NCBI GenBank assembly: GCA_030647125.1
Contig: JAUSKC010000011.1
Coordinates: forward strand, 1 to 59,217
DNA: 59,217 bases
Origin: Nanobdellota archaeon
Lineage (GTDB): Archaea; Nanobdellota; Nanobdellia; Pacearchaeales; GW2011-AR1
Reading direction: 5' to 3'
Positions 43,095-45,285 of the stretch are shown here, one piece after another. Position numbers and translations under genes: made by a program. The notes under the pieces were generated by a model. It was not told where the DNA came from. It was given only the letters and a program-made list of their open reading frames with translations, and did no database searches. Every line of letters starts with the position of its first letter. The first letter of the stretch is position 1.

Positions 43095-43319
43095 TTAATT
43101 CACTTTCTTTTCAGAACTAACAAATTCAGTATAATGGCATTTACCACAGTAAAATCTATTTTCTGCGTGTGCAAGGAAAATTCCAGGCCCACACTTTGGA
43201 CAAAACCTCAATTCTCTTTTTATCTTGCCGCCTTCAATCTTATATTTTGAATACTTCTTGCTTGTAGGATTATTTATGTGCTTCTTCTTTCCCTTCTTTA
43301 CAATTTTCTTTTTTCCCAT
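43095..43319 (-). CDS. rps27ae: Small-subunit ribosomal protein eS31 (S27ae)
   Basis: 74 aa with a Lys-rich N-terminus, then a zinc ribbon [20 protein letters not shown] and CGKCHYTEF; all four Cys are kept. It is an archaeal/eukaryotic 30S protein. It lies 2 bp after the eS24 stop, the standard archaeal order. Confidence 0.95.
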
Positions 43320-43321
43320 AT

Positions 43322-43651
43322 TTATTCACTACCTTCAGATTTACTTTCGTTAGCTTTCATTTCTTCAGTTGCCTTTTTCTCAGCTTCCTTTTCTTGCTTT
43401 GTCTTAACTTCAATTTTATCCAAATCCGACTTTGTCTTGTAAATAAAAGCTGTAACATTAAACTCACGAGCGCCAAATCGCCCTTCAACTTTCTTTATTC
43501 TAATATTTTCTTCAGGAACAGAAAATTTCTTTGCCAAATCCGATTTAACAACAGAATAACTTGGAGTCACTTCAGCAGAAATCATCACTTTAATTTCTTT
43601 TCTAGGAAAAATTAAGCTTTCTTTTTCTTCGCTAACTTTCAATCCTATCAT
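43322..43651 (-). CDS. rps24e: Small-subunit ribosomal protein eS24
   Basis: 109 aa. The family core is present: [20 protein letters not shown], then [38 protein letters not shown]. The C-terminal ~25 residues are a charged Lys/Glu extension. It overlaps the spt4 gene by 4 nt and is followed by eS31. Confidence 0.95.
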
Positions 43652-43842
43652 CGTGACTTAATGGCAAACTCGCCTTTATTTTTTAATTTCAACTTTTGAG
43701 CAATATCCGACTTTTCAGGATTGAAAACAAAAATTCTTCCTTTCCATGAATCGCTGAATTCATCTGCATTTAACTTATGCTCTTTAATATGTGACTCTTC
43801 AAGAAGTTCATTCGTTATCTTTGATGCTAATTTCTTTGTCAT
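43648..43842 (-). CDS. spt4: Spt4-like transcription elongation factor without zinc ribbon
   Basis: 64 aa. The C-terminal half matches archaeal Spt4 (Rpo E''): SDSWKGRIFVFNPEKSDIAQ then [15 protein letters not shown], where typical members read ...DPEKSEIAKKLGIKKPGKYAL. The N-terminal half should be a four-Cys zinc ribbon but contains no Cys at all and is replaced by a Lys/Glu helix. Position supports identity: between rpo7 and eS24, where Spt4 sits in archaea. It presumably still binds Spt5. Confidence 0.75.
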   Translation of the reverse strand: MTKKLASKITNELLEESHIKEHKLNADEFSDSWKGRIFVFNPEKSDIAQKLKLKNKGEFAIKSR

Positions 43843-43843
43843 T

Positions 43844-44245
43844 TTATTGTTTCTCTATTTTTAGTGCCAAATCCGATAATGAAGGAGTATAAAGATCAAA
43901 ATCTTGACCAACTTCCACCCTCAATTTATCTTCTACTGATCTAAGTTCATTTTCTAAAAAATCTAATAAAGGTTGATAATGTCTAGGAGCACGTAATGAA
44001 AATTCTTTAAATGCACTTCTTGTAATTTTATAATTGGTTGTTAATTGTAAAAGATCTTTTTTAGATTCACCTAATTCATTCTTTATTCGGTCTGTTATTC
44101 CCATAAGATGTATATAAGTCCACAATTTAGGGCTAATTTGTCCACCAAATTCTCCTTTTACAAATTTATTATATTCTTCAGAACATCTCTGAATCAAACT
44201 TGCATTAGATCCAAAAGGATCATCTTGTAAATATAACATTTCCAT
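43844..44245 (-). CDS. Unknown protein inserted between rpo7 and spt4
   Basis: 133 aa, mainly helical, with no recognised family (LWTYIHLMGITDRIKNELGE; LLDFLENELRSVEDKLRVEV). It lies one base after the rpo7 stop and one base before the spt4 start, so it is cotranscribed. This site is normally a direct rpo7-spt4 junction in archaea. It could contribute to polymerase function; nothing in the sequence shows it. Confidence 0.65.
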   Translation of the reverse strand: MEMLYLQDDPFGSNASLIQRCSEEYNKFVKGEFGGQISPKLWTYIHLMGITDRIKNELGESKKDLLQLTTNYKITRSAFKEFSLRAPRHYQPLLDFLENELRSVEDKLRVEVGQDFDLYTPSLSDLALKIEKQ

Positions 44246-44246
44246 T

Positions 44247-44876
44247 TTATTTCTTTTTCTCCTTTTTCCCTTTTCCTTTTGTCTCTTTTCCTTTTACGGT
44301 TCTCGATTCTGATTTCGCAACCCTTTCAGAGTCCTTTTGTTTTTTAACTTTTTCTTCTTCAACCCATTCCAACTTTCCTAATCCAGGTTGTCTCATTGTC
44401 AATCCAATTTTTGGCTCATCGCCTTTATAACTTATCGCAACAATTCTAGCCATGCACAAATCGCCTGCTTTCAAGGTTTTCTTTGACGCCTTCCCTGAAA
44501 GAACATTCGTCTTTGAGAATGATACGTAATCATTCATTGTTTGGCTTATATGAATCATTCCTCTCATAACACCCATATTAATGAACGCTCCGAAATTTGT
44601 TATCTCTTGAATTTCGCCGTAAACCAATTCTTGTATTTCAGGTTTCCATGCAAGAATTTTGAACTTTGAATTATAATAAGCAGCGCCGTCGCCCGGAATT
44701 ATAACACCCTCGCCGACTTCAATAACTTCAACAACTGCAATAACTTTCCCTATCTCTTTGTCATAATAATCAGCGTATGTCTCGTGAAGCTGCTCCTCAA
44801 CGGACTTCGTAGTAGGGAGCCCGAACAATTTCGGTTCAACTCGAACATAATCTTGTACTTCAGTTAAGTAGAACAT
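44247..44876 (-). CDS. rpo7: RNA polymerase subunit Rpo7 (RpoE')
   Basis: Stalk subunit of archaeal RNA polymerase, partner of Rpo4. 209 aa from the ATG at 44876 (MFYLTEVQDYVRVEP); the upstream extension to 44927 looks non-coding and contains the probable promoter. The N-terminal RNP-like domain spans residues 1-80. The S1/OB domain follows (LVYGEIQEITNFGAFINMGV, MRGMIHISQTMNDYV). The C-terminal 35 residues are a Lys-rich extension. The neighbours are the Fcf1-type PIN gene upstream and spt4 downstream. Confidence 0.95.
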   Translation of the reverse strand: MFYLTEVQDYVRVEPKLFGLPTTKSVEEQLHETYADYYDKEIGKVIAVVEVIEVGEGVIIPGDGAAYYNSKFKILAWKPEIQELVYGEIQEITNFGAFINMGVMRGMIHISQTMNDYVSFSKTNVLSGKASKKTLKAGDLCMARIVAISYKGDEPKIGLTMRQPGLGKLEWVEEEKVKKQKDSERVAKSESRTVKGKETKGKGKKEKKK

Positions 44877-44919
44877 TTTAATAAAAAAATTAGTCAGAAA
44901 TGCCTTAAAAACCTTTTGT

Positions 44920-45285
44920 TCAAACAATCTCCAATTTCTTTCTGTTTACTATGGTAAAAATACGCCCTTTAAACTTAGATTTTATCTCTTTATCAAGAGT
45001 TGCGATATAAACATGAGGGTTCTTTTTGGCATAAGAAAAAATTCCTTTATCAACATATTTGTTTCCCAATTTTATTTTTTCATATTTTTTATTTTCTAAA
45101 ATGCGCAAAGCAAGTTCAGCATCGAGCTTAAAATGCTTTTTCTTCTTTGAATTTTCAAACGACTTTAATTCGTAAATAACTTCATCTGGAATTATTATTT
45201 TATCTCCCGCTAGCTCGTCCAAAAAATAAAGTTTGTTCTTCACTGCTGTCAAAATAAAATTTGTATCTAAAATAATTGTTCTCAT
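44920..45285 (-). CDS. Fcf1/Utp24-type PIN domain protein
   Basis: 121 aa PIN nuclease. Acidic active-site residues are in ILDTNFIL (D7), EVIYELKSF (Glu) and IATLDKEIKSKFKGR (Asp). The family contains eukaryotic Fcf1/Utp24, which cuts pre-18S rRNA, and an archaeal form that is encoded next to rpo7 as here. The likely role is rRNA processing. It is first in the minus-strand block PIN-rpo7-unknown-spt4-eS24-eS31. Confidence 0.85.
   Translation of the reverse strand: MRTIILDTNFILTAVKNKLYFLDELAGDKIIIPDEVIYELKSFENSKKKKHFKLDAELALRILENKKYEKIKLGNKYVDKGIFSYAKKNPHVYIATLDKEIKSKFKGRIFTIVNRKKLEIV

Follow-up and report, generated by a model that had tools for sequence, protein, structure and literature searches.

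The window analyzed in this study, a stretch of 59,217 nucleotides from a Nanobdellota archaeon (contig JAUSKC010000011.1), encodes a zinc-free variant orthologous to Spt4, which does not represent a zinc-ribbon Spt4. The gene is located on the reverse strand at positions 43648..43842, starts with ATG, and specifies a protein of 64 amino acids, which very probably serves as the Spt4 of this genome without binding zinc. Furthermore, the window spt4 gene is a mosaic, consisting of an N-terminal half of a discrete zinc-free subfamily, designated the LASK type in this study, and a C-terminal half that is, together with the neighboring genes, of pacearchaeotal character.

Identity and locus of the zinc-free Spt4

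The assignment of the C-terminal half to Spt4, as proposed in the initial annotation, was confirmed by family profiles. Pfam Spt4 (PF06093) matched residues 21-62 to profile positions 32-75/77 with an E-value of 2.9e-6 and a score of 27.7 bits, which is above the cut-off of 25. The NCBIfam Spt4 model NF041664 matched residues 26-62 (E 2e-11, 43.6 bits), the score being under the equivalog cut-off of 50, which was reached by five other zinc-poor Spt4 proteins. The protein thus possesses the C-terminal core of the family and lacks the four-Cys zinc ribbon otherwise characteristic of Spt4.

The gene order at the locus is rpo7, a 133-aa ORF, spt4, eS24, and eS27a, all encoded on the reverse strand. 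The gene for RNA polymerase subunit E' (rpo7, 44247..44927) was identified by NCBIfam NF006333 with an E-value of 3.9e-64, the match starting at residue 18 of the listed ORF, whereas eS24 (43322..43651) and eS27a (43095..43319) were recognized by Pfam (2e-10 and 1e-18, respectively). The start codon of eS24 overlaps the spt4 stop codon, and the zinc ribbon of eS27a (CPKC...CGKC) is intact and served as a control within the window. The initial annotation, placing spt4 after rpo7 and before eS24, was therefore correct, with the 133-aa ORF (43844..44245) intervening after rpo7. In total, rpo7, spt4, and eS24 occurred together in 142 of the 153 loci fetched, indicating a conserved cluster. No Pfam or NCBIfam family was assigned to the 133-aa ORF, no homologue of it was found in any other fetched spt4 locus, and the best PHROG match had an E-value of only 0.39. 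The genome belongs to family f1 together with genome G024, which has the same Spt4 sequence as the Candidatus Pacearchaeota entry L064; it is therefore termed pacearchaeotal here.

A canonical Spt4 encoded elsewhere, as considered in the initial annotation, was not found in the genome of the window (640 kb, 88.6% complete), leaving the described ORF as the sole Spt4 detected; an assembly gap may hold another one. A weak match on contig C12 was rejected as a second Spt4 due to an internal stop. Likewise, no convincing second Spt4 was obtained in any of the zinc-less genomes searched, several of them being 95-100% complete. Since the zinc-less genomes checked hold no zinc-bearing Spt4, the zinc-free form represents a replacement.

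At least four cysteines are present in 50 of the 52 distinct Spt4 proteins aligned (window and relatives). Only the window protein, in which the absence of cysteine had been noted correctly for the N-terminal half, and L032 contain none. In the alignment, ribbon Cys 1 and Cys 2 correspond to S7 and T10, the second Cys pair is replaced as well, and the ribbon loop of the window protein comprises two extra residues compared to the canonical ribbon. Since the N-terminal half, apart from these two residues, can be aligned with the ribbon residue by residue, the change is a substitution. A truncation or frameshift concealing the ribbon was dismissed on account of the full-length alignment of this half and its recurrence in other genomes. 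An alternative zinc site was also rejected, because H18 and H22, the sole candidates, are not conserved in the LASK relatives; a weak or unusual metal site may be formed by these two residues in the window protein.

The structure of the protein was predicted with AlphaFold2 from an alignment of five sequences (window, L065, and three zinc-bearing homologues), resulting in a mean pLDDT of 86.8. This model yielded 16 high-probability PDB matches, all of them Spt4, with TM values between 0.55 and 0.85 by model length and VIA-align Z values of 6.7-9.0 over 57-64 residues. For a model based on the two zinc-free sequences, the pLDDT was 70, and 11 weak PDB matches (TM about 0.4) were again all Spt4 chains. 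The structural check suggested in the initial annotation, prediction of the protein alone, therefore returned solely Spt4 chains as confident matches. The protein is accordingly predicted to adopt the Spt4 fold, the alignment behind the better model including three zinc-bearing homologues, from which this model may borrow the shape of the ribbon.

Recurrence of zinc-less Spt4 and the LASK-type module

The lack of cysteine noted in the initial annotation was corroborated. The protein is not unique in this respect, being part of a recurrent and partly homologous set. Most relatives retain four cysteines, and zinc-less Spt4 recurs across Pacearchaeota and Woesearchaeota. Zinc-less or nearly zinc-less forms comprise the LASK type, L032, G076, genus g69, family f37, G454 (L161), and G343 (L183), the states in G032, G076, g69 (charged linker), and f37 (one Cys left) being clearly different from the LASK type. 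Three-Cys ribbons were observed in L170, L174, L189, and L201. In genus g69 (G112, G114-G117; L068-L072), a variable charged linker takes the place of the ribbon, the N-terminus being of low complexity and unconserved, and no convincing Spt4 match was obtained for G111 and G113, two further genomes of this genus. At an E-value of ≤0.001, Pfam did not report Spt4 in g69 and G076, despite an ORF at the right locus.

A tree was calculated from 294 columns of rpo7 and eS24 at 91 loci. A minimum of 13 changes is needed on it to account for the zinc-less state, and strong branches impose 7 of these; the exact number is soft, because the tree is a quick one with many weak branches. For five out of seven pairs of zinc-less genes, the window gene having no relative close enough for pairing, pN/pS values ranged between 0.09 and 0.39, and for two g69 pairs they were approximately 0.75. 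Purifying selection acts on zinc-less Spt4 in the five related pairs. Regarding the earlier designation of the window protein as a "zinc-independent minimal elongation factor", the zinc-free reading was upheld and the term "minimal" was not, since 64 amino acids correspond to the canonical length and the N-terminal half represents a conserved alternative module. Conservation and purifying selection, as deduced from sequences, suggest that the function of an elongation factor would be retained.

The LASK type was defined by the pattern KKLAxKxTKxLL....IxE...F, and the 33-residue N-terminal half was tested as KxLAxKxTKxLLxxxxIxExxxxxxxF. A profile constructed from 11 LASK Spt4 proteins was searched against 371 sampled genomes of the phylum and revealed 14 full-length matches, including the window protein, with scores between 99 and 115 bits, the next match scoring 83 bits. 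Four of the 14 (L272-L275) were not included in the profile, all of them lacking cysteine, and a fifteenth member, G397 (L148), had been found earlier. According to a leave-one-out analysis, the window protein carries the LASK N-half (residues 1-32, 43747..43842, reverse strand) in place of the zinc ribbon: it scored 45.3 bits (E 6e-14) against the N-half profile of ten other zinc-free Spt4 proteins, the next non-member reaching 21.4 bits and four-Cys rows scoring far lower, with the best near E 0.01. LASK Spt4 is a discrete zinc-free subfamily.

The C-terminal half of the window protein (residues 33-64, 43651..43746, reverse strand), comprising the Spt4 core, is Pacearchaeota-like. It shares 25 of 32 residues with L050, a four-Cys Spt4 of its own family, and achieved 70.0 bits against the profile of its own family (50 four-Cys C-halves), compared to 50.9 bits for LASK and 50.5 bits for f42. 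In addition, rpo7 and eS24 of the window group with those of zinc-bearing Pacearchaeota in the flanking-gene tree, and a single clade of LASK holders was rejected by the flanking genes (AU p 5.6e-166). The window gene is hence a mosaic of a LASK N-half and a pacearchaeotal C-half with pacearchaeotal neighbors.

The different affiliation of the two halves suggests that the N-terminal half was imported by intragenic recombination. Recombination inside the rpo7-spt4-eS24 cluster would have brought in the 5' half of the gene, with a Woesearchaeota-like Spt4 as its source; no donor was found for it. With only about 32 residues per half to compare, this is considered the most likely route to the zinc-free half, having roughly an even chance of being correct. 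The 133-aa ORF was also considered as a passenger co-imported with the LASK half; it is absent beside LASK genes elsewhere, and this idea therefore remains speculative. Two LASK-type spt4 genes (L147 and L150, in genomes G333 and G250) are located outside the rpo7 cluster, the G333 gene adjoining rpo10 with an intact zinc site and the G250 copy adjoining thymidine kinase and uppS.

The native C-terminal half and flanking genes would also fit a ribbon that decayed in place in the window lineage, the same metal-free solution (C1 replaced by S, H, or N, C2 by T, and hydrophobic fill) being selected repeatedly. Zinc-less states clearly different from LASK also arose in G032, G076, g69, and f37, and C2 is threonine in most zinc-less types, so that part of the likeness reflects a shared solution. 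However, members of the LASK type have the whole 33-residue pattern in common, its length included, and the N-half of the window matches it far better than any four-Cys row does (E 6e-14 versus near 0.01 at best), making such convergence possible, if somewhat unlikely. Alternatively, LASK may be an old paralogue, cysteine-bearing and cysteine-free copies having coexisted and been sorted differently, as proposed for bacterial S4. The wide separation of LASK members on the flanking-gene tree and the position of the G333 and G250 genes away from rpo7 and eS24 are in line with an ancient polymorphism of this kind, which is nevertheless regarded as unlikely, given that both forms occurred together in no genome examined and that nearly all copies reside at the same operon position. 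A gene degenerating towards loss is highly improbable, and so is an artefact of assembly. Yeast can do without Spt4 at permissive temperatures, archaeal assays do not strictly require it (PMC3382729), and the N-half is unconserved in g69, two genomes of which showed no Spt4, but the ORF of the window is intact with a conserved core, related zinc-less pairs are under purifying selection, and the same module was recovered from 14 independently assembled genomes.

Spt5 and further zinc sites

The C-terminal core of Spt4 pairs with the NGN domain of Spt5. Spt5 is present in the genome of the window with a conserved NGN domain, which is conserved across the zinc-less genomes as well, and inspection of the alignment by eye revealed no obvious change special to the latter that would indicate co-adaptation. 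As the half recognized by the family profiles is retained and the NGN domain is conserved, the C-terminal core would still pair with and cap the NGN domain of Spt5. In the N-terminal half, the homologous metal-free LASK module would occupy the position where the four-Cys ribbon normally sits, and its conserved hydrophobic residues L5, A6, L13, L14, I19, and F29, together with W33, probably form the core that is normally organized by zinc. Zinc-free Spt4 would then bind and stabilize Spt5 on the elongating RNA polymerase at no zinc cost. Two different Spt5 genes were detected in the genome of the window, both near contig ends (L126:600-1055 and L138:166-648), one beside uL11/eL43 and the other beside ftsZ, which points to either an additional Spt5 copy or a contig of foreign origin.

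Other zinc proteins were compared locally. In eL43 (L37Ae) encoded in the genome of the window (contig C7, L126:1784-2149), all four zinc cysteines are replaced (SPFNPK...WKDKKSG). The eL43 ligands are also gone in G032, one of four is kept in G076 and in G026, a genome with zinc-bearing Spt4, and two are kept in G269 and G343. Furthermore, ribbon cysteines of eS27a are lost (SPKSPGD...CGKTGYTE) in eight loci of f42, a family of Woesearchaeota (L065, L144, L145, L146, L172, L179, L183, and L211). The raw counts tend towards an association with zinc-less Spt4, such losses being counted in 5 of 21 zinc-less and 3 of 67 zinc-bearing Spt4 rows, but all of them fall within family f42; as three of these loci encode a normal Spt4, the losses are not strictly coupled.

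Zinc economy is a plausible driver of these losses, and the changes in Spt4, eL43, and eS27a point to repeated zinc sparing in the gene expression machinery of DPANN archaea. Tentatively, and with somewhat less than an even chance, the metal-free module can be interpreted as a mobile replacement of the Spt4 ribbon, recombining between DPANN families in a core operon, within a wider stripping of zinc from Spt4, eL43, and eS27a.

Comparison with known systems

In the open literature (open-licence papers, judged mostly by listing), no report on zinc-less Spt4 was found. No literature on Spt4 together with Woesearchaeota was found either, and the available passages on Spt4 in DPANN archaea contained no mention of a zinc-less form. 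A 2026 survey (PMC13289920) described the zinc cysteines of Spt4 as nearly invariant and used the zinc finger to recognize Spt4; surveys of Spt4 presence or absence keyed on this feature will miss zinc-free forms. According to the results obtained here, a zinc site that is nearly universal in gene expression can be replaced, and, given the natural series of zinc-free proteins, whatever keeps spt4 under selection does not require the metal site. Zinc-free Spt4 proteins are also ready test proteins for separating fold stability from contacts to Spt5 and DNA.

Compared to archaeal Spt4/RpoE'' (PF06093, NF041664; structures 3LPE, 3P8B, 1RYQ, and 9BCT), the window protein is similar in its C-terminal core, length, predicted fold, placement in the operon between rpo7 and eS24, and single copy per genome. 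It differs in the absence of all four zinc ligands, the LASK N-half found instead, and the score below the NCBIfam equivalog cut-off. In bacteria, NusG is the homologue of Spt5 and functions without Spt4, representing an NGN/KOW factor that acts without a zinc partner; in the system described here, by contrast, the Spt4 partner is kept and the metal alone is lost.

The closest precedent is provided by bacterial ribosomal proteins, which occur in zinc (C+) and non-zinc (C-) forms, horizontal transfer being documented for S4, the best example (PMC3087516). Zinc-independent alternative ribosomal proteins are a related case. Traits in common with zinc-free Spt4 are the loss of zinc ligands from a core information-processing protein, a patchy distribution, a conserved gene cluster, and signs of horizontal exchange. 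The present case, however, concerns a transcription elongation factor of DPANN archaea, has no C+ copy alongside, and involves an apparent half-gene mosaic. Zinc-free Spt4 thus adds a new variant to a known protein and another case to a known evolutionary pattern.
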